DNA of 64,000 nt from Planctomycetota bacterium (lineage in GTDB: Bacteria; Planctomycetota; Planctomycetia; Pirellulales; Lacipirellulaceae), in assembly GCA_029259915.1 (NCBI GenBank), contig JAJDED010000039.1, positions 1-64,000 on the forward strand, written 5' to 3'. Both the position numbers and the translations under genes were made by a program. Under the pieces are notes generated by a model that made no database searches, had not been told where the DNA came from, and worked only from the letters and a program-made list of their open reading frames with translations. This document shows, one piece after another, positions 1 to 23,430 of this stretch; the stretch's first letter is position 1; each line of letters begins with the position of its first letter.

Positions 1-330
1 GCTTGCTTCGCAGCAGCAGCGATTCTTACGCTTGAACAACTTGCTCAAGAAACAGCTTCGCTTCTTTTTGCAGCAGCACTTGCTGGCACAGCCACAGCTG
101 GCTTCGCAGCAGTTGTCACCACAGCAGCCATCGCCGCAGCAACCGTCGTCACAACAGTTGTCGCCGCAGCAATCGTCGGCACATCCACAAGATTTTTCAC
201 AACAACACTGCGGTTCGCACGAGTCGCAACCGCAGCCACATCCAAGCATCGTGTCCAACAAACCATATCCATAGCTCGGGCCTGTCAGACACACGCCTAC
301 GATGAGCGCTCCTAATACGTTCCACTTCAT
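1..330 (-). CDS. Cys-rich secreted protein, 3' truncated by window edge
   Basis: Reverse strand from CAT at 328-330 reads MKWNVLGALIVGVCLTGPSYGYGLLDTMLGCGCGCDSCEPQCCCEKSCGCADDCCGDNCCDDGCCGDGCCGDNCCEASCGCASKCCCKKKRSCFLSKLFKRKNRCCCEAS, open to position 1; signal-like N-terminus; absent from ORF track because no stop lies inside the window. Confidence 0.8.
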   Translation of the reverse strand, partial: MKWNVLGALIVGVCLTGPSYGYGLLDTMLGCGCGCDSCEPQCCCEKSCGCADDCCGDNCCDDGCCGDGCCGDNCCEASCGCASKCCCKKKRSCFLSKLFKRKNRCCCEAS

Positions 331-1066
331 CGAATAACGTCTCCTATTCGTTGGGGACGACTGCGCAAACACAGCTAACCTGTGTTCCGGCGTCTGGAAT
401 CGCCACACCTTCCCTGGCATTGGTCGCGATGACGTGTAACTTGGGCGTGTGCCCGGATGACTTGCGGGGGGTAAGGAAGGCGGGTGTTCCGGATTTGCCG
501 GAGGGGTCAAGGGGGGTTGCAATCGTGTCCCACGGTCAGGCGTCAACACCAGTCGAGCCAATCCATGACTCGAAGTAGTACAGGCCGGTTTGTCGACGCG
601 CTAAACAGCGGTTCGTCGCGTAAACACCTGAGTGCTTTGCTTGCGACATCAACTCGTATCGGTTGGGCCTGTAAGAACGCTTGAGGACTCAGAAGTAATT
701 TTCCCCAAGTGGTTTAGGTCAACCGTTAGGCAAAATATAGCGGCCACGGAAGCTTGCTTGCTGGTGCCGATTGTAGACGCAAAATCGCGTCCATTGCTCA
801 TAGCTGGGATATTGAAAACTTGCTATGTTAACAGGGAAATAATGCGGAATGACCGTGCGATCGTGTAGCGTTCGGAAAGCTGATCTGCAAAGTTTCCCGG
901 TTCACAAAACCCACCCTGGTCGTCAAACTTTACTAAGCTTCACACCCGGTCATCCGGCAGGTTCCCTCCCCATTCGCCCACCATCCAGGTTACCTCTGAG
1001 CTGCGTTCCCAGAAAAGCCTCGCCATTTTATCAGTTGGTTCAATTCGTCGGTTCGCCTCACCGTTA

Positions 1067-3373
1067 ATGGGCGATATGAAATTCCCTTCCGTTTCGAGGT
1101 TCTCGACAATGACCCGTACTGCATGTCGTCTGTTGTTGGTGCTGCACCTGTTCGCCGGAAGCACGGCGCATGCCAACCAAAGCTATGCCGATAGCGCCAT
1201 GGATTGGCCCAATTGGCGCGGGCCGAGGCAAAACAACTCCTCTACCGAGAAGGGACTGATCGACCACTGGGACCCCAACGGAGGACCGGGAAGCAACCTG
1301 CTTTGGAAAAACGAAGAACTAGGCGGACGCTCCACGCCGATCGTCATGCGCGGGAAACTCTTCACCATTGTTCGCGACCAGCCGGGAACGCCCACCGAAG
1401 CGGCAAAGGTCGTCTGCGTGGATGCCGCCTCGGGCGAGAAGCTTTGGCAACATCGTTTTAATGTCTATTTGAGCGACGTGCCTGATACACGCGTAGGTTG
1501 GTCCTGCTGCGCAGGCGATCCGGAAACAGGTCGCATCTATGCGCAAAGCGTATCGGGATATTTTTGTTGCTTGGAAGGCGACACCGGCAAACTGGTTTGG
1601 CAGCGCAGTCTCCACGAAGAGTTTGGCCTGCTCAGCACCTATGGCGGACGAACCAATGTACCTTTGGTTTTCGAAGACTTGATTCTCGTCAGCGGGGTCG
1701 TCATCGGTTGGGGCGACTCTCCCGACTGGGGGTCACTTGCCAAGCCGGCCCATCGGTTCCTGGCCTTCGACAAATTCACCGGCGAACTACGCTGGATCAA
1801 TGGCACGAATATCTCCCCCTACGACACGACCTACAGCACGCCGACGATTACGACCTTGGGCGGACAAGCTGCCATGGTTTTCGCCTCGGGCGACGGCGGA
1901 TTGTGGGCCCTGCAACCGCGAACCGGAAAACGGTTGTGGAACTATCCGTTTTCGCGCCGCGGGATCAATGTGTCGCCATTGGTTGTTGGCAACACCGTTT
2001 ACCTTTCGCACGGCGAAGAAAATGTCGTGGGTAGCGCGATGGGTTCTTTGGTCGCAATCGACGGAACCCAATCGGGCAATCTCACCGGAAAAGAAAATTG
2101 GCAAACGTTTCAAGTCATGGCCGGCAAGAGTTCGCCAATTATGGTGGACGGAAAATTGTGGGTTGTTAGCGACGGGGCAAAACTCGGCATCTTCGATCCG
2201 ACAACCGGTGAACAGATCGCACGCAAAGCGTTGGGCCGCACGATGCGAAGCACCCCGCTCTACGCCGACGGCAAGGTTTACTTATGTACCAACGAAGGCG
2301 TGTGGGTAATCCTTCAGCCAACCGATAGTGGTGTGAAAGTCTTGCAGAAGTTGCGGCTGCCTGGCGAAGCGAGCGATGGATCTCCCATAGTTTCGCTTGG
2401 CCGGATTTACCTACCAACATCGCGCGCGATTTATTGTCTTGGCGACGAATCACACAATCCGTCCGCCGAGCCACTTCCTACGCTGCCAAAAGAAACACCT
2501 GTGGCCGAAGATCCAGCTCCGGCACAGTTGCAAATCGTTCCCTACGACATTCTGTTGAAGCCCGGACAGCAGCAAAAATACCTCGCACGGGTTTTCAATG
2601 CCCGCGGCCAGTTACTCCGTGAAGTTCCTGCCAGCGAAGTTGCATTTCAAGTCGAGGGACCCGGTTCGATTTCCGCAGAAGGCAATTACACGGCAAGCAA
2701 CCACAATGCACACGAGGCGGCACGCGTTGTTTGTCGCGTTGGAGAATTGCAAGGCACCGCCCGAGTGCGCATCGTGCCGCCGCTGCCTTGGGAATTTGAT
2801 TTCTATACCGGCGACAAAGTGCCGCTCACCTGGGTAGGCGGACGCGTGCGGTATGTTTTGCGAGAAGTCGATGGGGAGAAAATTGCCGTGAAACGCGACG
2901 TACTACCCACGCCGCGCAATCCTCATAACAAACTCGGCACACGCAGTCGATTGTGGATGGGGCCGATCGATCTGTCGAATTACACCATCCAAGCCGACGT
3001 GAAGCTAACCGAAAAGAACGGCAAACTGCCAGACATCGGTCTCATTAACAGCCGCTATACAATGACCGTGCGGTCGATGAATCGCAAATTGCGAATCTAT
3101 AGCTGGAGCCCGCACGATACTCGGGCATTTGCAGAGGTCGAATATGCTCCTTCACCAAATACTTGGGTGACGATGAAGCTACGCGTCGAATCCGATGGCG
3201 ACCAAGCCGTTGTGCGCGGCAAGCTCTGGCAACGCGGACACGAAGAACCTGACGAATGGACCGTCTCGATGGTCGATCCTTCGCCCAATCTCTTTGGTAG
3301 CCCCGGCTTGTATGGCAATGCTCAAGAAGCGGAGATTCACATAGACAATATCTCTGTAACACCAAACCAGTAG
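1067..3373 (+). CDS. PQQ-like beta-propeller repeat protein, secreted
   Basis: 768 aa; signal peptide; WPNWRGPRQNNSS start of propeller, repeated GK..W / VYLS strands, C-terminal lectin-like region. Confidence 0.85.
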   Translation: MGDMKFPSVSRFSTMTRTACRLLLVLHLFAGSTAHANQSYADSAMDWPNWRGPRQNNSSTEKGLIDHWDPNGGPGSNLLWKNEELGGRSTPIVMRGKLFTIVRDQPGTPTEAAKVVCVDAASGEKLWQHRFNVYLSDVPDTRVGWSCCAGDPETGRIYAQSVSGYFCCLEGDTGKLVWQRSLHEEFGLLSTYGGRTNVPLVFEDLILVSGVVIGWGDSPDWGSLAKPAHRFLAFDKFTGELRWINGTNISPYDTTYSTPTITTLGGQAAMVFASGDGGLWALQPRTGKRLWNYPFSRRGINVSPLVVGNTVYLSHGEENVVGSAMGSLVAIDGTQSGNLTGKENWQTFQVMAGKSSPIMVDGKLWVVSDGAKLGIFDPTTGEQIARKALGRTMRSTPLYADGKVYLCTNEGVWVILQPTDSGVKVLQKLRLPGEASDGSPIVSLGRIYLPTSRAIYCLGDESHNPSAEPLPTLPKETPVAEDPAPAQLQIVPYDILLKPGQQQKYLARVFNARGQLLREVPASEVAFQVEGPGSISAEGNYTASNHNAHEAARVVCRVGELQGTARVRIVPPLPWEFDFYTGDKVPLTWVGGRVRYVLREVDGEKIAVKRDVLPTPRNPHNKLGTRSRLWMGPIDLSNYTIQADVKLTEKNGKLPDIGLINSRYTMTVRSMNRKLRIYSWSPHDTRAFAEVEYAPSPNTWVTMKLRVESDGDQAVVRGKLWQRGHEEPDEWTVSMVDPSPNLFGSPGLYGNAQEAEIHIDNISVTPNQ

Positions 3374-3389
3374 CACTGAAATAGGTTTA

Positions 3390-3430
3390 CCCGCGAAACC
3401 GCAAGCGGCCGTCGCTTGCGGTTTCGCGGG
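3390..3430. terminator. Perfect 18-bp stem-loop between two PQQ genes
   Basis: CCCGCGAAACCGCAAGCG-GCCGT-CGCTTGCGGTTTCGCGGG; no clear U-tract, so could be a REP rather than a terminator. Confidence 0.6.
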
Positions 3431-3447
3431 CAAAGAATGAATTTTCA

Positions 3448-5181
3448 ATGGATCTCACAATGAACAGAGCATGGCGAATTGTTGGTATCTTGGTGGCTGC
3501 ACTATTGGGCTGGTCGCTGGGTAATGCTGGGGCAGTGACGAATAGCGCAGAACCAAACGTCAACTGGTCCCAGTGGGGCGGCAATTCGATGCGCAATAAT
3601 ACGCCTGTCGGACACGGTATCCCCGTCGACTGGAATGTGGGAAAATTCGATTACCGCACCGGAGAGTGGAATCCTGCGAACGCGAAAAATATCAAATGGG
3701 TCGCCCGGCTGGGCTCCCAGTCTTATGGTAACGCCGTGATCGCCGACGGCAGAATCTTTGTCGGCACCAACAACAGTGGCGGTTGGCTGGAGCGGTATCC
3801 CGCAAACGTTGACTTGGGTTGCTTACTCTGTTTTGATAGCGAATTGGGAGAATTCCTCTGGCAACACAGTAGCGAAAAACTCCCCTCCGGACGCGTCCAC
3901 GATTGGCCCCTCCAGGGCATTTGTTGCGCCCCGTTGGTCGAAGGAAATCGACTTTGGTTTGTCACCAGCCGCGGCGAAGTGCGCTGCCTCGACACCGAAG
4001 GGTTCCGGGACGGCGAAAACGACGGGCCGTTCACGCAAGAAGAAATCCAAACTGAACAGGAAGCCGACGTTGTTTGGAGCTTCAACATGATGGAGCAGCT
4101 CGGTATTTCGCAGCACAACATGTGCAGTTGCTCGGTCACCGCTGCGGGTGACATTCTGTTGGTCAATACGTCGAACGGTGTCGACGTCGAACATAATTAC
4201 ATCCCCGCTCCCGAGGCTCCCAGCTTTTTCGCCATGAATAAAAACACGGGCGAGGTGTTATGGACCGACAACTCGCCAGGGCTAAACATTTTGCATGGCC
4301 AATGGTCTTCGCCCACGGTTGCGGAACTTGCCGGGCACACCCAAGCGATCTTCGGCGGCGGCGATGGTTGGGTTTACAGTTTCGACGTTGCCGGGTCGCC
4401 CGATGGCAAATCCCGCTTACTGTGGAAATTCGATGCCAATCCCAAAACGTCGAAGTGGGAATTAGGTGGTCGCGGCACGCGAAACAACATCATTGCCACA
4501 CCGGTGGTTTACGAGGGACACGTGTATGTCGCGGTAGGACAGGATCCCGAACATGGCGAGGGCATCGGACATTTGTGGTGCATCGACCCTGCGAAGCGAG
4601 GCGACGTCAGCCCCGAACTGGCATTCAATGCCGCGAATCCAGAAAAACCGATTCCTCATAAACGTGTTCAGGCGGTGATCCCCGAAGAAGGCGACCTCAC
4701 ACGCCCCAATCCCAACTCCGCGGCCGTTTGGCACTATAGCCAGTTCGATCAGAACGGAGACGGAAACGTCGATTTCGAAGAAACCATGCACCGCAGTTGC
4801 GGCACCGTGGCCATCCGCGACGGTGTGTTGTACATCGCCGACTTCAGCGGGCTGTTTCACTGCCTTGATGCAGCCACCGGCCAAGTCCACTGGACCTACG
4901 ATATGCTCTCGGCAGCATGGGGATCACCGCTTCTAGTCGAAGACAAAGTCTACATCGGCGACGAGGACGGCGAAGTGGCCATCTTCCGTCACTCGGCAGA
5001 TCGTGCAAAGGCGATGCGCGAAGTCGACGGCGAATGGCAACCCTTTTATGGAACACGTGAAATGGGAAACAGCGTTTACAGCACACCGATCGTCGCCGAC
5101 AATGTACTCTACATTTCCAATCGCACCCATTTGTTTGCGATTGTTAATTCCGAAAGTTCAACCGAGGCTACCGATGACTAA
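3448..5181 (+). CDS. PQQ-like beta-propeller repeat protein with embedded EF-hand-like loop
   Basis: 577 aa; NWSQWGGNSMRNN; FDQNGDGNVDFEETM is a Ca-binding-type loop. Confidence 0.85.
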   Translation: MDLTMNRAWRIVGILVAALLGWSLGNAGAVTNSAEPNVNWSQWGGNSMRNNTPVGHGIPVDWNVGKFDYRTGEWNPANAKNIKWVARLGSQSYGNAVIADGRIFVGTNNSGGWLERYPANVDLGCLLCFDSELGEFLWQHSSEKLPSGRVHDWPLQGICCAPLVEGNRLWFVTSRGEVRCLDTEGFRDGENDGPFTQEEIQTEQEADVVWSFNMMEQLGISQHNMCSCSVTAAGDILLVNTSNGVDVEHNYIPAPEAPSFFAMNKNTGEVLWTDNSPGLNILHGQWSSPTVAELAGHTQAIFGGGDGWVYSFDVAGSPDGKSRLLWKFDANPKTSKWELGGRGTRNNIIATPVVYEGHVYVAVGQDPEHGEGIGHLWCIDPAKRGDVSPELAFNAANPEKPIPHKRVQAVIPEEGDLTRPNPNSAAVWHYSQFDQNGDGNVDFEETMHRSCGTVAIRDGVLYIADFSGLFHCLDAATGQVHWTYDMLSAAWGSPLLVEDKVYIGDEDGEVAIFRHSADRAKAMREVDGEWQPFYGTREMGNSVYSTPIVADNVLYISNRTHLFAIVNSESSTEATDD

Positions 5182-14563: not shown

Positions 14564-15220
14564 ATGACGCAGCAAGCGGTGATTTTTGATGTCGACGGCG
14601 TATTGGTCGATTCCTACCAGGCCCATTTTCACAGTTTTCAAAAGCTGCTCGGCGAACTGGGATGCGAGTTCACCGAACCCGAGTTCCGCGTCACCTTCGG
14701 CCGCACCACCCGCGACATTGTCGCCAAGCTTTATGGCGACAAGCTAACCGACCAGGAAATCCTGCAATTCGACGATCGCAAGGAAACGCTGTTCCGCGAA
14801 ATTCTCCGGGAAGATTTCCCCGCAATCGACGGCGCTGCAGAATTGGTCCAAGCTCTGGCCGACGCCGGTTTTCACCAAGCGGTAGGTTCTTCAGGCCCAC
14901 CAGAAAATGTGGCCCTGGCACTCGATAGCTTGGCGTGCGGCAAGCATTTCACGGCGCGAGTCACCGGCGGCGACGTCACCCGCGGCAAGCCCGACCCGCA
15001 GGCTTTTCTGTTGGCTGCTGAAAAGCTGGGCGTTGCACCGCAACAATGTGCCGTGGTGGAAGACGCCCCGGCAGGTGTCGAAGCGGCCAACCGCGCCGAA
15101 ATGGCCAGCATCGCACTCACCGGCACCGCCACCCGGGAGCAACTCTCCCACGCACGCCTGGTGGTCGACAGCTTGCGCGAATTATCGCCCGAGTGTATTG
15201 CAACCTTGATCGAGAACTGA
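14564..15220 (+). CDS. HAD-family hydrolase (beta-phosphoglucomutase-like)
   Basis: VIFDVDGVLVDSYQAHFHSF; GGDVTRGKPDPQAFLLAAEKLG; VVEDAPAGVEAA. Confidence 0.88.
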   Translation: MTQQAVIFDVDGVLVDSYQAHFHSFQKLLGELGCEFTEPEFRVTFGRTTRDIVAKLYGDKLTDQEILQFDDRKETLFREILREDFPAIDGAAELVQALADAGFHQAVGSSGPPENVALALDSLACGKHFTARVTGGDVTRGKPDPQAFLLAAEKLGVAPQQCAVVEDAPAGVEAANRAEMASIALTGTATREQLSHARLVVDSLRELSPECIATLIEN

Positions 15221-15306
15221 TTAAAGAACCGCTCAGATCCGCGAAAAAATGCGCGCTAAGCCGCTTCGGTGTTTCACTCTGGTGCTAGTTAGCTTCTGAC
15301 CGAAAG

Positions 15307-15444
15307 TGCATCGGCCTGGTACGCCGACGCGGGTTAGCGAGATGCCAAAATCCCAATAATTGGGGGCAAAAGTGCGATTTTTCCCATGGAGTTCAGATTC
15401 ACCCTGCACCTTCGGCTCAGGGGCTTGGTACAGAGGTCAGATAC
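15307..15444. repeat. 138-nt inverted repeat, copy A
   Basis: Reverse complement closely matches 20583-20720 (shared CAATTATTGGGATTTTGGCA, CTCGCTAA, CGCGTCGG, AGGCCGATGCA, GAGCCGAAGGT, GTATCTGAC). Confidence 0.85.
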
Positions 15445-15641
15445 TCCGCACTGTGGGGACATGGTATTTCCAGTATTAAGTAGAAGCAACGTTGCACTAA
15501 ACTCTGTTTTTTTCAGGAAATTGGTGAAACGACGCGGAGCATGAGTGATACACATAAATCCCTTTACTGCAGTCACTTTCGAGCTTAGCATAAGTAATCC
15601 AAATCTAATCTGTAATGCATCTCACCCGCAGAAGGTGGCTC

Positions 15642-17252
15642 ATGTACCGATGGATTCAAAAGGCACTATTCGCAACTCTAATCTTGCTGCAATTATCCAG
15701 TAGCAATTTAGGCTTTGGTTATAGTATCGAGGCGAATAATAAACTGGGCTTGGGCTTACCAGATCAGACGGTAAGCTTTTCGGGTGATGCTGCTGACGCC
15801 CCTCCTGCTATTTGGAGTGTATTTAATCCTGGTGGTCGTTGTAGTGTAACTGCCGCTGGAGCAGGATTCTCTTACAGTCATAGCAGAACGAATGGAGTGT
15901 CCGGTTTACTTTCTGGAGTTGCGTCGACGCAAGGCGCAGAGTTCAATTTAGTAGATAACCTAAATCTCCTGAATGCGGCTAATTCTGGTGCAAATACATT
16001 TGAATTTCTTGTGCATTTTGAAACTAAAGTTTCGACTTACGCTCCTGATCGTCCCGGTTTTGGGTCTTTCGACGATGCACAAGTGCTTTTGGATGTCAAT
16101 GTTTATGGGCCAGGTTTTTCCAATAGTGAGACAGGATTTCACTCGCTAAGCGAGGGGAGTTTGGAAAGCCAAAGTGGTCTGTATGTTGGTTTACCCGATG
16201 CTGGTGGCGAACTAGACTTTACAGTTCCCGGGTCTATTACTGTGACGGGCAGCGGGAGTACGATTAACTTTGGGATTGATACGTGGGTTTTCACTCAGTC
16301 TCGTGGGTCTGGAAACGCAGGAGTTTACGTGCAACTTGCCGATGTTCCAATCACACGCTCAGATGGGACGACACTAGAAAGTCTAGGAATCAGTCATAAC
16401 TTTATCCCTGATCCAATATCGGCGAATGGGTTTGCATGCAACCTCGGATTTAATTTATGGGATGTCGCAGCTCTTACCATTAATCCTATCGTCTTTGCTG
16501 GAGGCGGAAATATCGCATCCGCCAATCTATTTGGTGTAGGGGATGGTGGTTTTAGTAGCGTGGGTGTGTTTGATGTTGATGCAAACGGTGAGGTACTAGC
16601 GCCAATTACGACTGAAGTGGTAGAATCTTCAACAGATGGCCTAACCATACTTGGTACGGATTTAGACGGCAACTTGCTTCTTTCGGCACCAACAGGGACG
16701 ATAACAGCTGGAGTCACTCTTGAGAGCCTCTTTAGTTCTTGGACTGTAGCAGGAGCATTAGACACACCAGAAAACTTTCTGCTGGACCCCACAGTACAAG
16801 CAGTGTTGCTTCAACCCATCCCACCGATGGGGTCAACGGCAGTTTTAGATATCGAGCTCTTTTCTTTTGATCTATTTTCTGGCGTTTCATCTGTTTTCGG
16901 AGGTGCTGAACTGTATGAAACACATGCTGGTGATTTTGACTTAGATGGCGATGTTGACGAGGTAGATCTTCAAACCTGGGAAAGTGGATACGGGGATACG
17001 CCCTTCGCAGCCTATCAAGACGGAGACTCAAACGCTGATGGCTCAATCGATGGTTTCGATTTTCTGATTTGGCAAAGGAATTTTGGGATTCCACTTCCTA
17101 CTGTGGCTGCTTCAGCTAGTGTACCAGAGCCCTCTACGCTACTGCTGGCTAGCCTCTCAGGGTGCACTTTCTTACAACGAAGACGACGAGGTTACCTCGC
17201 TGAGGTTGCACCTACCTCAGCGAGTTCGGGGGTGACTTTTCTGGGGGTGTGA
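15642..17252 (+). CDS. Secreted PEP-CTERM/dockerin-type protein, paralog of 18844-20394
   Basis: MYRWIQKALFATLILLQLSSSNLGFG signal; DFDLDGDVDEVDLQTW and DSNADGSIDGFDFLIWQRNFG; SVPEPSTLLLASLSGCTFLQRRRR. Confidence 0.8.
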   Translation: MYRWIQKALFATLILLQLSSSNLGFGYSIEANNKLGLGLPDQTVSFSGDAADAPPAIWSVFNPGGRCSVTAAGAGFSYSHSRTNGVSGLLSGVASTQGAEFNLVDNLNLLNAANSGANTFEFLVHFETKVSTYAPDRPGFGSFDDAQVLLDVNVYGPGFSNSETGFHSLSEGSLESQSGLYVGLPDAGGELDFTVPGSITVTGSGSTINFGIDTWVFTQSRGSGNAGVYVQLADVPITRSDGTTLESLGISHNFIPDPISANGFACNLGFNLWDVAALTINPIVFAGGGNIASANLFGVGDGGFSSVGVFDVDANGEVLAPITTEVVESSTDGLTILGTDLDGNLLLSAPTGTITAGVTLESLFSSWTVAGALDTPENFLLDPTVQAVLLQPIPPMGSTAVLDIELFSFDLFSGVSSVFGGAELYETHAGDFDLDGDVDEVDLQTWESGYGDTPFAAYQDGDSNADGSIDGFDFLIWQRNFGIPLPTVAASASVPEPSTLLLASLSGCTFLQRRRRGYLAEVAPTSASSGVTFLGV

Positions 17253-17396
17253 CGACCAACGGAACAGAATCATACGCTAAGCACGTTTCCAGGCTGAACT
17301 TTCCCGAAAACGATGCATGATGATGCCGTCACACCTATAAAAAACGCCGAGGATTTCAGTCCACAGCGTTTGAAACTTTCCCTAAAAGGGTCATTC

Positions 17397-18017
17397 CTAG
17401 GAAAGTCTGCGTCTGACACTTACTCCCAGTCCTGACGCCATTAGCAAGAGGCACCAGGTCGATGGCTCTGGAATAACGTTGAACTGAAAGTTAGGAGCAG
17501 TGAAATCTGTTCCGCCTGTCTGTACATTTGGCGCGGGAAAAACAAAACCAGGTCCGTCGCCTGCTCTGCCGCTATATTCCACAAAAGGGTCGGTCGTTAT
17601 TGAAGTGCTACCTTGCAAAAAGAGGTCAAGGCTACCATCGCCAAAATGGGCACCGACAACATAACTACCAACAGGTAGCTGTACGCTCGGTACATTGACG
17701 TAGCGGTAATTGCCCAGTAGTGAGCCACTTGTCCCACTTGGTACAGTTGCAGAAGCTACTAAATCTCCTGCGGATGTCCAGATTCCTACGTCGTGAGCTT
17801 CAGCTAGTCCATCTTGGTTAGAATCGAAGAAACCAAGTCTTCCCAATGTTACCTCTGTATTTAGGTCGAATGCCCAGCCTAAGGTCTGGTTAAACTGAGA
17901 GTTCTGCAGGGTGCCTCCTGTTTCGCTCACTAAAGCTTCCGTCGCGTATGCACTCAGAGGTGTCAAGCAGAGTGAAGCGAAAAGCACGGTTAGTGCTAAA
18001 ATGCGAAGATGTGTCAT
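17397..18017 (-). CDS. PEP-CTERM sorting domain protein
   Basis: Signal peptide; C-terminal VIPEPSTWCLLLMASGLGVSVRRRLS. Confidence 0.8.
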   Translation of the reverse strand: MTHLRILALTVLFASLCLTPLSAYATEALVSETGGTLQNSQFNQTLGWAFDLNTEVTLGRLGFFDSNQDGLAEAHDVGIWTSAGDLVASATVPSGTSGSLLGNYRYVNVPSVQLPVGSYVVGAHFGDGSLDLFLQGSTSITTDPFVEYSGRAGDGPGFVFPAPNVQTGGTDFTAPNFQFNVIPEPSTWCLLLMASGLGVSVRRRLS

Positions 18018-18287
18018 CTGTGTCTCCGGATGCTAAGTCATAGTCCTAGGCGAAAGAGAAGAGTACCGAACGTAATCGCCAGTTATCGGACGAAAGCCCT
18101 CGGCGATGTGGAACCCAGATTGTAAGGGCGGGACTCTGGCAAATCAAGTAATCTGGGAAAGCCTTGATTCCTAGAGGTTTCCGGGGTTCTCAGGCCTTAG
18201 CGTATAACCCTGTTCCGTTGGTCGTCGCACCCCTTCTGTGGTCGGCTGTGCACGCCGCCGCACGAAAACGGACGATACAGCGGGGCT

Positions 18288-18600
18288 TTATCGAGCCGCA
18301 ATCCGCCGTCTGCTCATTACCAAGCAGAAGGCGGCTAGGGCTAGAGTGCAGGCGGTCGGCTCTGGCACCGAAGCAGCACTCAGAAAGTTTGGATCTGGAG
18401 CCCAAGCATCTAGCAGGATGCCCAAGTCGAGGCCGTCTACTGGGTCGCTGCTGTTGAGTTCGCCGCCGGAGGGTGGAAGCCAATGCCATCCCAGTTGATC
18501 AGCAGGATGCCGAGGTCGAGGCCATCGACGAAACCGTCCGTGTTTAGGTCGGGCCACGCGGGTGTCGATGTCGTTACGGTCAACAGCGTGTAACCTGTTA
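18288..18600 (-). pseudogene. Frameshifted remnant of a dockerin/PEP-CTERM protein C-terminus
   Basis: One frame reads WPDLNTDGFVDGLDLGILLINWDGIGFHPPA; the next continues NSSDPVDGLDLGILLDAWAPDPNFLSAASVPEPTACTLALAAFCLVMSRRR. Confidence 0.7.
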
Positions 18601-18843
18601 AATCGTATGCGGTGAGGTAGCTTAGAGTGTAGTCATGATTTGACAGGCGAAAATGTTCTCCGTGAGTATCCGGCGTCTCTGCAATGTCGCAAGTGCAAGA
18701 AGGAATGTTGGGCGACAGAGATCAAATAGGTTGAAGCTCTTTGGTTTCTTTTTGCAGGTCATTGTCTACAGCTGCTTGGTTGTAGGTTGGGGCAATGAAA
18801 GAAGAGGGAGGGGCTCGGCCCCTATGCAACTTGTCTGATGGCC

Positions 18844-20394
18844 TTATCTCTGGCTGCATCTCGCATAGCTTAAAGCGACAATACTGAAACAAGCAAGACA
18901 TAACGCAGTTGGTTCAGGAACGACGGTCGATGTGGCTACAATAGACTGTGTTAAACCAAAGTTTCTTTGCCAAGACAGGAAATCAATTCCGTCTACTACA
19001 CCATCAACGTTAGCATCCCCATCTTGGAAGGTGGCGTACGGCTGCTTCCCATAGTTGCTTGCCCACGTATCCAAGTCTATTTCGTCGACATCGCCATCCA
19101 AGTCGAAATCTGCTTCAATCGCTTCAGTTACCGTTCCATCTCCAAATGTGGAAGCTAGTTCTGTTGCTTGGTTGAATGAATAAATCTCAACATCTAGGGG
19201 AATGCCAGAGCCCATTACCGGTAACTGTGATAGTAGAACAGTCTGAACTAGAGGGTCTAACAGAAAATCAACAGGTGAAGTTAGAGCATCGACCACTGTC
19301 CAGGTTCCGAAAAGAGAAGAGAATGAATCTCCATTGCTGACCGCACCTGCTGGGACGGACAAAAGAAGATCACCATTTAGGTCAGTACCGAATACTACAA
19401 GTCCATCCGATGCTGCTTCAGCTAAGTCCGTGGGTATTGGGACAGTAACCTCACCATTTGTGTCGACATCCAATATACTCAAGCTATTTAAACCACTTGT
19501 CCCAAAAGTGAATAGGTCAGCTGATCGCATATTACCACCGTTTGAAAACACGAACGGATTTACCTGTATCTTCATCACATCCCACAAATTGAATCCACTT
19601 CCACTGCCGCAACCAGGCAGCGCATCTATTGATACCGGAGGGGGAACGAACTCGTAGCTGATGCCAAGACTCTCCAGCATGGCTCCGTCTGAGCGAGTGA
19701 TGGGAACGTTTGCCAGTTGCACATAGATTCCTGCGTGTCCAGTTCCTTGGCTCCACGCTTGGGTGAATACATTTGTAGAGACAGTCAATGAACTGCCGCT
19801 CCCGGTCGAGGTCAGTGAACCAGGCATTGTTACATCTAACGAACCTCCATTCAAGGGTAGCCCGATAAACGTTCCCGATTGATCAAAAATCATGCCATTA
19901 TGAAGGTCTTGCTGCCCAGATTCTTCATTACTAAAGTCGGCGCCAGTAACGTTGATAGACATTCCTGCGATGGCAGCATCAAAGCCCTGGCCATCTGGAG
20001 CTTGCGTCTCCATGTAGACTTCAAAGTGCATTAGGAAGTTGAATTGATTAGAACCGGTTTCAATTGACGTAAGCAAATTAAAGTCATCAATAATTCTCAA
20101 CTCAGCCCATCTTGATGTTGCATTCCCGTCTATGAGGCCGGGCTGACCTGCTGAATGGCTGATGCTGGAAGAAAAACCGGCTCCTGCACCATTGATAACA
20201 CACCTGCCGTTACTATCGCTTTTACGATGTCCCAGCGCAACAGGAGCATCTGCAACATCACCGGAATACAACACAGTATCATATGTAATAGTACCAACTC
20301 TGGAATTTGCCTGTATCTGGTAAGCATGAACAGGGGCGCTAGACAGAACCAAGGTCAATACTGCAAGTGTTGCTGAGGAGGATTGGCGAGTCAT
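18844..20394 (-). CDS. Secreted PEP-CTERM/dockerin-type protein, paralog of 15642-17252
   Basis: Shared blocks GDVADAP, VYVQLANVPITRSDG.LESLGIS, GFNLWDV, FDLDGDVDE.DL.TW, DGIDFLSWQRNFG, VVPEPT. Confidence 0.8.
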   Translation of the reverse strand: MTRQSSSATLAVLTLVLSSAPVHAYQIQANSRVGTITYDTVLYSGDVADAPVALGHRKSDSNGRCVINGAGAGFSSSISHSAGQPGLIDGNATSRWAELRIIDDFNLLTSIETGSNQFNFLMHFEVYMETQAPDGQGFDAAIAGMSINVTGADFSNEESGQQDLHNGMIFDQSGTFIGLPLNGGSLDVTMPGSLTSTGSGSSLTVSTNVFTQAWSQGTGHAGIYVQLANVPITRSDGAMLESLGISYEFVPPPVSIDALPGCGSGSGFNLWDVMKIQVNPFVFSNGGNMRSADLFTFGTSGLNSLSILDVDTNGEVTVPIPTDLAEAASDGLVVFGTDLNGDLLLSVPAGAVSNGDSFSSLFGTWTVVDALTSPVDFLLDPLVQTVLLSQLPVMGSGIPLDVEIYSFNQATELASTFGDGTVTEAIEADFDLDGDVDEIDLDTWASNYGKQPYATFQDGDANVDGVVDGIDFLSWQRNFGLTQSIVATSTVVPEPTALCLACFSIVALSYARCSQR

Positions 20395-20582
20395 ATCAAT
20401 TCCTTGTTACTTATAGCGAGATTTCCCATTTGGAATTGCCTGGAACTACTCCAGGCACGGAATGTCGCCTATTACAACAGCACGTCCCTAGTATCCGCGA
20501 AATGCCCGGATGATGCCAGCAAGTTTACCTGCATTGGAGGGCGCAAACACCCAAATTCGGCCAAACGCTAACGGACAGCGGT

Positions 20583-20720
20583 GTATCTGACTTCAGCAGA
20601 TAGCCCCCGAGCCGAAGGTACAGAGGTGATTCCGACCGCCATGGGAATGTCGCATATTTGCCCTCAATTATTGGGATTTTGGCACCTCGCTAAGACGCGT
20701 CGGAGTACAAGGCCGATGCA
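20583..20720. repeat. 138-nt inverted repeat, copy B
   Basis: See copy A at 15307-15444. Confidence 0.85.
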
Positions 20721-20991
20721 GATTGGGAAATTCGCTAAATCCCCTCGGATTCATCGTCCTGGGCACTTTGAGTGCCGCTACAAATCCACAAAACGTCCGT
20801 ATTGGGACACTTCTCATGCTGGCCACCCCGTAAACACTTACTTCAGCGCGACACATCTAAATTGGCCACCGTTTTCCTTAAAGCTGTTGACACACACAAA
20901 CCAATATGTTACTTTTTAGTCACGTATTGGCGGCGGCCGTTGGAGGCTGTTTTTTTGCTTGTTTTACGATGTTTGTTATGAGGCACGGTTT

Positions 20992-21420
20992 ATGAATCTT
21001 GAAGAATTAACCCTGGATATCGAACAACACATTGACGTGAATGCCCCGATTGGCGAGGTGTTCGATGGCGTCGTGAAGCAGTTCGGCGAGCGGAGTGCCA
21101 CACCCGACGGCAGCCCGATGCCGCTGGTGCTCGAAGAATTTCCCGGCGGACGCTGGTTTCGCGATTTGGGTGGCAACACGGGCCACTTTTGGGGCACAGT
21201 CCAGGTGATCAAACCGCCACAACTGCTCGAGATCAGCGGGCCGATGTTTATGTCGTATCCGGCAGCCAATCACATCCAGGTTCGCCTGGAAGAGCAGGGC
21301 GGTGGCACCCGCGTCACACTTCGGCATCGGGCACTGGGACTTATCGAAGAAAATCACCGCACGGGCGTGAACAGCGGCTGGCAAAACTATTTAGTAAGGA
21401 TCAAATCCCATTGCGAATAA
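20992..21420 (+). CDS. SRPBCC / AHSA1-like domain protein
   Basis: MNLEELTLDIEQHIDVNAPIGEVFDGVVKQFGE...FPGGRWFRDLGGNTGHFWGTVQVIKPP. Confidence 0.8.
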   Translation: MNLEELTLDIEQHIDVNAPIGEVFDGVVKQFGERSATPDGSPMPLVLEEFPGGRWFRDLGGNTGHFWGTVQVIKPPQLLEISGPMFMSYPAANHIQVRLEEQGGGTRVTLRHRALGLIEENHRTGVNSGWQNYLVRIKSHCE

Positions 21421-21460
21421 ACGTTCGCAGAAGATTAAACATTCACAAAAGCTTGAGGCC

Positions 21461-21781
21461 ATGGACGATTCTCTCGAAGCGGTGTGGAAGGCACTCAGCG
21501 ACGCCACGCGGCGCGAGATTCTCGATCTATTGCGGACGGGCCCCAAAACTACTTCGGAGATCGTCGAGCAGTTTTCGCATCTGACACGCTTCGGGGTGAT
21601 GAAACACCTGGACGTGCTGCGGACCGCCGGCTTGGTCAATACGCGAGCCGAGGGCCGACGACGAATCAACTCGCTCAATGCCGTGCCAATACGACAAATT
21701 TACGAGCGTTGGGTCAGCAAATTCGAAGAACAGTGGGCTATCCAACTGATCGCCCTGAAAGATTCGTTAGAAAAAAAGTAG
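21461..21781 (+). CDS. ArsR-family winged-helix regulator
   Basis: VWKALSDATRREILDLLRTGPKTTSEIVEQFSHLTRFGVMKHLDVLRTAGLV. Confidence 0.88.
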   Translation: MDDSLEAVWKALSDATRREILDLLRTGPKTTSEIVEQFSHLTRFGVMKHLDVLRTAGLVNTRAEGRRRINSLNAVPIRQIYERWVSKFEEQWAIQLIALKDSLEKK

Positions 21782-21816
21782 CCCAAATAGTACACAAGCG
21801 TTCAGTTCAGAAAGAT

Positions 21817-21955
21817 AAGAACCACGGATGACACGAGTTTTCACGGATCAAGCGCTCTGTTGAACGTACCCTGTCGTTCATTAGACGAATGCGAGACCAA
21901 GGAATGTATTTATACCTGGAATCCGTGAATATCTGTGTGATCCGTGGTCGCAACC
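21817..21955. repeat. Intergenic inverted repeat, ACCACGGATGACACG word type
   Basis: AACCACGGATGACACGAGTTTTCACGGATC ... GAATCCGTGAATATCTGTGTGATCCGTGGTC. Confidence 0.75.
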
Positions 21956-22019
21956 TTTTGTAAACGTACTAATTCTTACTACAAGTTTCCCTTCCACCAC
22001 TTTTTTGAGGCATGAAGAA

Positions 22020-22517
22020 ATGAACACAAGAGACTTTATCAAACTGTCGCTAGAAATGAGCAAAGGCTGGATTTCCGGTTTGCTGGCTGACATGCAAGAC
22101 CAGCCGACAACGCAGCCGACATCCAACGGAGGCAACCATCCGCTCTGGATTCTCGGCCACGTGGTGCAAGCCGAGTCGTTTCTGCTCGACGAATGTATTC
22201 AGGGCAAACCGAATCGCTTCCCAGAACTCAAAGAGCTCTGCGGCATCGGCAGCGTGCCCCAAACCGATGCGTCGAAGTATCCGTCGATGGACGACATGTT
22301 CGCATCATTCGAACAAGTGCGCGGCGACGTAATTGCGTTGCTCGACACGATTGGCGAAGACGACCTGGACAAAGCGACAGCCGCCCCCACGGAATTTGCG
22401 GATTGGTTTGGCACCTACGGCCAATGCTTTTCCGCTATGATCGTCCATCCCTCGTTCCACGCCGGACAAGTTTCCGACGCCCGCCGCGCGGCAGGACGCG
22501 GTCCGCTGATGATGTAG
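22020..22517 (+). CDS. DinB superfamily protein
   Basis: MNTRDFIKLSLEMSKGWISGLLADMQ...HPLWILGHVVQAESFLLD; MIVHPSFHAGQVSDARRAAGR. Confidence 0.85.
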   Translation: MNTRDFIKLSLEMSKGWISGLLADMQDQPTTQPTSNGGNHPLWILGHVVQAESFLLDECIQGKPNRFPELKELCGIGSVPQTDASKYPSMDDMFASFEQVRGDVIALLDTIGEDDLDKATAAPTEFADWFGTYGQCFSAMIVHPSFHAGQVSDARRAAGRGPLMM

Positions 22518-22542
22518 AGGGAAAAAATTGAAGCACGGCTTG

Positions 22543-23430
22543 TTAGCGCCGGCCAAAACGGTTCGGCGCTAACCAAGCCATGAGCAATGCAATCGACCCG
22601 CAAAGCGACATGGTTCCAGGTTCCGGCACGACCGTAAAACCAATATCTCGCAAGGATTGGACCGTCGTGTTGCTCAAAAAGGGCTCGCCAAAGTCGGGGT
22701 CGAGCGCGCCGGTCATCAATTCCAATGCCGAATCGCGGCCCATGGGATCTAAAATCCCCGTGCGCGGATCGAGGCTCCAGGGATCGCTAGGATTGCCCTC
22801 CTGGCTGCTGCTGCGCATCAATTGATTCCAGTGTGTATTCTGTGTGCCGCTGCTGCCGGCTAATTCCACCGGCACAAAGGTTGCCGCGGCGTCGAACTCG
22901 CCCTGGTAAGCGGCCACGCCAAATGGCCCCGTGTACTGGCCAGTCGTGACCACATAAACACCGTTGGCCGTCCACTGCGTGCCGATGCCCAACACGTGGC
23001 CCATCTCGTGTGCCACAATATCGTCGAGAAAATTGGCGCCCTGAAATTCCGTATTGGGCGGCGTCGGCCCCGAGCCGTCCCAACTGAAAAAAGTATCGAC
23101 CACTGCCGGATTGACAAACAGATTGCCAGCCGTGGAAAGCAGAAACCCACCCTGCGAGGTACTCGCGCTGGGCGACGCGGCAGCAAAAGCTGATCCTGCC
23201 TGCACATTGATGGAAATCCCAGTGAGACTGATCCCCGGTTGATAACCGGTGACAGCATTTTCCCAAAGCACTTCGGCGCTAGCCAAAGCCACGCCAAGCT
23301 TCTGCTGTTGGCTAACTGTGAAACCGGTGGGATTGATGGTGAATGTCAAATCGAACTGGCCACGCACCGTGGGCGCGTAGCCAAGCAAAATAAGTAGTGT
23401 TGTGCAACATGAAATTGAATATCGAAACAT
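22543..23430 (-). CDS. PEP-CTERM-anchored zinc metalloprotease-like protein
   Basis: DDIVAHEMGHVLGIGTQW (HExxH); C-terminal VPEPGTMSLCGSIALLMAWLAPNRFGRR. Confidence 0.82.
   Translation of the reverse strand: MFRYSISCCTTLLILLGYAPTVRGQFDLTFTINPTGFTVSQQQKLGVALASAEVLWENAVTGYQPGISLTGISINVQAGSAFAAASPSASTSQGGFLLSTAGNLFVNPAVVDTFFSWDGSGPTPPNTEFQGANFLDDIVAHEMGHVLGIGTQWTANGVYVVTTGQYTGPFGVAAYQGEFDAAATFVPVELAGSSGTQNTHWNQLMRSSSQEGNPSDPWSLDPRTGILDPMGRDSALELMTGALDPDFGEPFLSNTTVQSLRDIGFTVVPEPGTMSLCGSIALLMAWLAPNRFGRR

Follow-up and report, generated by a model that had tools for sequence, protein, structure and literature searches.

Inverted non-coding repeats upstream of two PEP-CTERM/dockerin genes as likely inner parts of the ends of a decayed, Tn3-derived element in a planctomycete-like genus

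Introduction

The stretch of planctomycete DNA analysed here (64,000 nucleotides, called the window as a whole) contains two paralogous genes for PEP-CTERM/dockerin proteins, each of which is preceded by one copy of an inverted, non-coding repeat of 138 nt. The locus raises the question of how two non-coding blocks came to be more alike than the genes that they precede. A preliminary description of the locus had offered three answers: the ends of a mobile unit or cassette, a co-duplicated regulatory element and a gene-conversion tract. Planctomycetes have very many PEP-CTERM proteins, which vary widely.

The repeat pair and the paralogs

Repeat copy 1 was found at 15307-15449 on the plus strand and copy 2 at 20578-20720 on the minus strand. 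In the global alignment of 15307-15449 with 20720-20578, 119 of the 142 aligned columns were identical (83.8%) and the copies differed by two compensating 1-nt gaps; the pair thus proved to be real, with both copies in place and above the 65% identity that had been set as its lower limit. A BLAST search of the own genome with 15290-15460 as the query recovered copy 2 at 20578-20720 on the minus strand (83%, E 2.6e-34), whereas an inverted-repeat search split the pair into the arms 15289-15384/20643-20738 and 15404-15449/20578-20623 (80% each) with a short arm of 83% between them. The full unit was present in two copies only in the own 4.2-Mb genome (BLAST), and neither the full unit nor its inner part of about 98 nt upstream of other genes was matched in any of the 297 genomes of the order, so that the genome-wide dispersal named beforehand as counter-evidence was not found for the full unit.

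The 138-nt unit was found to be composite. It contained the inner hairpin of an array, followed by about 65 nt confined to this pair and then by the start of the leader region; each copy as a whole comprised this hairpin and about 98 nt common to the two copies only (83-84% identity). The outer 40 nt or so of the unit, together with the outer flanks of both copies, belonged to a genus-wide family of two-hairpin arrays. A conserved small ORF in the unit was ruled out, since the 1-nt gaps between the copies left no frame that was kept. The folds of either copy on either strand were not significantly better than those of shuffles (z 0.51, 0.38, -1.82 and 0.30), and nothing in Rfam matched either copy over 15200-20850, the one sub-threshold match lying elsewhere (17336-17415); the idea of a structured RNA was accordingly given up. 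The longest identical run between the copies was 20 nt. An exact 20-nt core had three matches in public genomes, in unrelated Gammaproteobacteria, which were judged to be chance, and was absent from the viral contigs searched. A similarity of 18-19 nt to IS110 was also set aside as chance.

Paralog 1 (15642-17252, plus strand, alternative start at 15615) encoded 536 aa with dockerin-like repeats and PEP-CTERM (PF07589 above cut-off), and its stop codon fell within the 38-nt repeat of the inner element described below. Paralog 2 (18844-20394, minus strand) encoded 516 aa with dockerin-like repeats and a PEP-CTERM-like C-terminus. The repeat was present upstream of each gene, as had been described, but the genes are not divergent as had been thought: they converge, with the plus-strand gene on the left and the minus-strand gene on the right. 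The two proteins were identical at 50.2% of positions and the genes at 57/73/34% of the three codon positions, which makes the third positions near-random. The non-coding repeat was therefore indeed better conserved than the coding sequence (83.8% against 50.2% in protein and 34% at third codon positions), from which it follows that the repeat block is younger than the genes, or was homogenised, or is constrained.

Full-length homologues of the paralogs were found in 0 of the 297 genomes of the order, with one weak partial match in G223 when a shortened query was used. The shortened query was the better test, because the family-level search with the whole protein was crowded by dockerin/PEP-CTERM matches, with only 34 candidates scored per genome. 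Two degenerate peptide patterns recovered no homologue in the genome contigs, and a viral match, located in a tail-fibre-like protein, was attributed to chance.

The island and its ends

In the relatives G004 and G006 the gene order was HAD, protease, TPR gene, DUF2089-like gene and GluQ, with the HAD gene adjoining the protease gene, whereas the two were separated by 7.3 kb in the window. This gap was found to hold the AHSA1/ArsR/DinB operon and, between that operon and the HAD gene, an island from 15223 to about 20803. The HAD-protease spacer of 60-90 nt in relatives was too distant to align for placing the island ends by an empty site. The AHSA1 - ArsR - DinB-like operon (20959-22517) was likewise inserted between the HAD and protease genes in comparison with relatives, and the AHSA1 gene itself was patchy in distribution. 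An inverted repeat of 82% (ACCACGGATGACACGAGTTTTCACGGAT; 21821-21848 / 21921-21948) was observed downstream of the ArsR gene.

The left end of the island contained a degenerate 38-nt Tn3-type terminal inverted repeat of subtype B (AAAGAACCGCTCAGATCCGCGAAAAAATGCGCGCTAAG; 15223-15260, plus strand), which began 2 nt past the HAD stop codon and lacked the outer GGGG. A subtype-B profile, built from the ends of four relatives plus the Tn501 repeat and with the window excluded, gave 15228-15260 as its sole significant match in 64 kb (E 1.7e-4). Subtype B is the repeat of the G007:C657 element, and the L115 example of the subtype has a perfect target duplication. In an ungapped comparison with the Tn501 repeat the left end reached 20/38, which was not above background, and only the profile of the relatives' ends was significant. 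The repeat profiles found no recognisable 38-nt repeat at the right end, nor was an inner inverted repeat found at 15449 or 20578 by eye or by the profiles. The target-site duplications proposed for the flanks did not materialise for the island: TGATT, the 5 nt at the left end, was absent from 20700-22600. In outline the island resembles a Tn3-derived non-autonomous element, but for this reason it is called Tn3-like in make-up and is not filed as a member of that class.

Each end was found to contain a hairpin array inwards of its edge. The left array of two hairpins (15258-15336, plus strand; iterated profile, E 1.5e-13) and the right array (20691-20769, minus strand; E 7.4e-16) were inverted relative to each other, and the left array had a relative in the own genome (L007, E 1.2e-8). 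Among the fetched loci, paired arrays were convergent in 7/7 cases (the window, L115, L116, L119, L120, L146 and L147), a small sample in which some second members are partial; the loci had been fetched for one array each, so that array orientation was not selected. The pairs bracketed one or few genes, several of them PEP-CTERM, including DUF7453/PEP-CTERM genes in G010 and G002, where the left arrays were 81% identical in DNA, the bracketed proteins were 36% identical and the flanks differed. The similarity between paired arrays reached less far inwards elsewhere than in the island. The view of the repeat copies as ends of a mobile unit or cassette thus stands in part: the copies lie inside inverted end modules that bracket an accessory island, but the 138-nt unit is not itself a terminus.

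A candidate eighth pair was observed in the own genome (L171, about 95-3869; G000:C48), where two arrays and one subtype-B repeat surround two genes, norB for nitric oxide reductase and one that is cupin-like. An intergenic motif (GTACCTTTGTACGG) was also present about 100-150 nt from array hairpins in L113 (about 500-760) and L014 (G000:C41, G002:C192).

The inner element and the 38-nt repeat family

An inner element was found at 17244-18233, at the 3' end of paralog 1. It contained a 38-nt Tn3-type inverted repeat at its left end (17244-17281, plus strand; 27/38 to the Tn3 repeat) and another at its other end (18196-18233, minus strand; 23/38), complementary to each other at 89%, and the duplicated target TTCTG was present on both sides (17239-17243 and 18234-18238). 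When both strands of the window were ranked against the Tn3 repeat, 17244 came first and its partner 18233 third. The single substantial ORF was a passenger gene (17397-18017, minus strand) for 206 aa with PEP-CTERM (PF07589 above cut-off) and a weak DUF4082 (PF13313 below cut-off), and no transposase gene was present. In its repeats, its 5-bp duplication and its lack of a transposase, the inner element shows the features of Tn3-derived non-autonomous elements for which it was tested. The reference sequences of the Tn3 and Tn501 repeats were found at 100% in thousands of plasmid records, the Tn3 repeat beside blaTEM; the 38-mer of the inner element, compared along its full length, was up to 87% identical to plasmid sequences.

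The 38-nt repeat family was present across the genus. The repeat adjoined the array in L118 and L146 and lay outside the array in L115 and L147. Perfect 5-bp target duplications (TTCTG, TGATT, TCAAC and TATCA) were found in four transposase-less elements, namely the inner element of the window, G012:C211, G007:C530 and G007:C657, and a fifth element, which carries a Y1_Tnp gene, had a duplication of 4/5. No Tn3 transposase was found in the own genome (93% complete); one was found in the genus, on a 3-kb contig that carried no matching repeat.

The transposase-less Tn3-type element of G007:C530 (L148, 7275-11674; 4.4 kb; TCAAC) contained a gene with an AbiTii domain, a phage-defence family. The locus L147 (5524-9754; G007:C632) contained Tn3-type ends and internal arrays and encoded a Y1_Tnp (IS200-like/RAYT-like) protein. 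At about 6885 of G004:C16 (L121, L143), a 38-nt Tn3-type end was seen by eye immediately past a short ORF that looks like the beginning of a dihydrofolate-reductase-like gene (GRVTYE), seemingly cut by the insertion.

Leaders and alternative explanations

That the 138-nt pair is the distal part of a regulatory region, co-duplicated with the gene and maintained by purifying selection during the divergence of the coding sequence, is a possible explanation, though not the likely one. The two copies agree in their distance from the paralogs and in their orientation upstream of them, and both leaders were found to carry ATAAGTAA immediately before the start. Upstream of unrelated genes in G012, in G002 and, in part, in G006, both the unit's 3' end (GTCAGATACACCGC) and the adjoining leader recurred, and on this account the earlier suggestion of a co-duplicated regulatory element keeps some support. 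In G012 and G002, the leader of paralog 2 (20416-20599, minus strand) was matched (71% over 182 nt) by that of a gene of another kind, which encodes a PEP-CTERM metalloprotease. The leader core (20486-20416, minus strand) contained a -10-like box followed by two small hairpins with weak covariation; it recurred upstream of many genes, and the genus search gave leader matches in 9 of the 14 genomes. The mismatches between the repeat copies, however, were unclustered (p 0.38 and 0.49), and this even spread, which is not in blocks, fits constrained sites less well than a block of later origin than the genes. Also opposed to regulation are the outer 40 nt, which are part of a mobile-looking array, the about 98 nt, which precede no other gene in the 297 genomes, and the lack of a significant RNA fold.

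A genus-wide upstream element, GTTACAATRGGCGAC...GCCTGGAGTGGTTCCAGGC-AATTCCAAATGGGAAATCCCG, was observed at 20486-20416 (minus strand) of the window and in L151-L163. It precedes many genes for exported proteins (PEP-CTERM, DUF1559-like, DUF1501-like and others), had no match in Rfam and was read as a promoter plus possible hairpins of the 5' UTR.

Gene conversion between the two inverted copies, by which the block would have been homogenised after an old inverted duplication with the coding sequences too different to convert, is improbable. The evenly spread mismatches are consistent with it, as are the location of both inverted copies in a single locus, at a distance of 5.1 kb, and the abrupt edges on both sides, where the homology ended: the 85 nt outside and the approximately 165 nt inside the pair aligned no better than shuffles (320/500 and 205/500 as good, respectively). 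The block is short, however, with its longest identical run at only 20 nt, and the outer flanks of the copies do not form a pair of decayed duplicates, each being closer to array members elsewhere. For the inner 98 nt or so, constraint or gene conversion is possible. That the pair is due to chance, or is a dispersed repeat with no relation to the genes, is very improbable, and for the full 138-nt unit it was refuted. The array part is scattered through the genus, but the E value of the match, the presence of only two full copies in the genome and their matching places upstream of the paralogs oppose this explanation.

Proposed origin of the repeat pair

The explanation preferred here, and held to be somewhat probable, is that the two repeat copies form the inner part of a pair of inverted ends, which belong to a decayed, Tn3-derived and transposase-less element carrying passengers. 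The island would be such an accessory Tn3-type element, with a single end module of about 226 nt present at its two ends in inverted orientation. Each module would contain, from the outside inwards, the 38-nt Tn3-type repeat (recognisable on the left only), the two-hairpin array and about 98 nt reaching into the upstream region of the passenger; the 138-nt pair would be the best preserved inner part of both modules. As the about 98 nt are confined to this pair, they are not a general part of the ends. The passengers would be the PEP-CTERM/dockerin surface-protein genes, transcribed inwards, and the better preserved inner element would be a second element of like kind, inserted later at the 3' end of paralog 1. 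The whole island may have moved as one element, presumably by a Tn3-family transposase acting in trans, and its ends may be more alike than its genes because the end modules were copied or homogenised independently of the passengers.

A remnant of the 3' end of a PEP-CTERM metalloprotease-type gene was found at 18243-18464 (minus strand; 71% identity along 224 nt, E 5.7e-32, in comparison with the end of the G012:C211 gene on its 3' side). This remnant, paralog 2 and 20420-20599 were collinear in order with both ends of the metalloprotease cassette of G012, as though paralog 2 had taken the place of most of a metalloprotease-type gene. A broader scheme, put forward tentatively and considered unlikely, is a genus-wide cassette exchange in which Tn3-type elements that lack a transposase and have standard end modules, some of these with a promoter/leader, take up ORFs for surface proteins and others and swap them between genomic sites. 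If it were true, ends and leaders would keep their likeness while passengers diverge or are replaced; one such swap would be paralog 2, which has the leader of a metalloprotease cassette on one side and its 3' remnant on the other.

Such a cassette would be akin to a little-noticed family of transposase-less mobile elements of Tn3 type, by which surface-protein and other genes are carried about in this planctomycete-like genus. A family of transposase-less cassettes with 5-bp target duplications would be a concrete vehicle for the spread of PEP-CTERM genes that annotation pipelines overlook. Cassette ends also offer a way, with no appeal to regulation, in which non-coding DNA can be more conserved than an adjacent gene.

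Comparison with known systems

Such cassettes were not described in the parts consulted of the literature on PEP-CTERM with transposons and on Planctomycetes with miniature inverted-repeat elements. Mobile insertion cassettes (MICs) have IS231-type ends. The elements of this genus resemble them in having transposon ends around a passenger and no transposase, but their ends are Tn3-type. The REP/REPIN sequences with RAYT (Y1 transposase) are similar in that short extragenic palindromes occur in arrays, and one array-bracketed Y1_Tnp element was found, in G007 only; unlike REP/REPIN, the arrays here sit inside 38-nt inverted repeats.

The closest likeness was found with TIMEs, which contain 38-nt Tn3-type repeats and 5-bp duplications and no transposase, and with TIME-COMP, in which passengers lie between such ends and some ends are inverse (PMC4133298, PMC13367494), as here. 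TIME and TIME-COMP were described mainly from Pseudomonas and Enterobacteriaceae and mostly on plasmids (PMC4133298, PMC13367494), whereas the present elements lie on chromosomal contigs of a planctomycete-like genus. The ends of TIME-COMP are complete miniature elements with their own inverted repeats at both ends, whereas the modules of the island contained no inner inverted repeat and its recognisable 38-nt repeat was present on the left only. The elements of this genus further differ in their passengers, which are PEP-CTERM and other genes, and in the hairpin arrays that lie within their ends. Judged by their sequence features, the elements would thus be of the known TIME/TIME-COMP-like kind, here with hairpin arrays and PEP-CTERM passengers.
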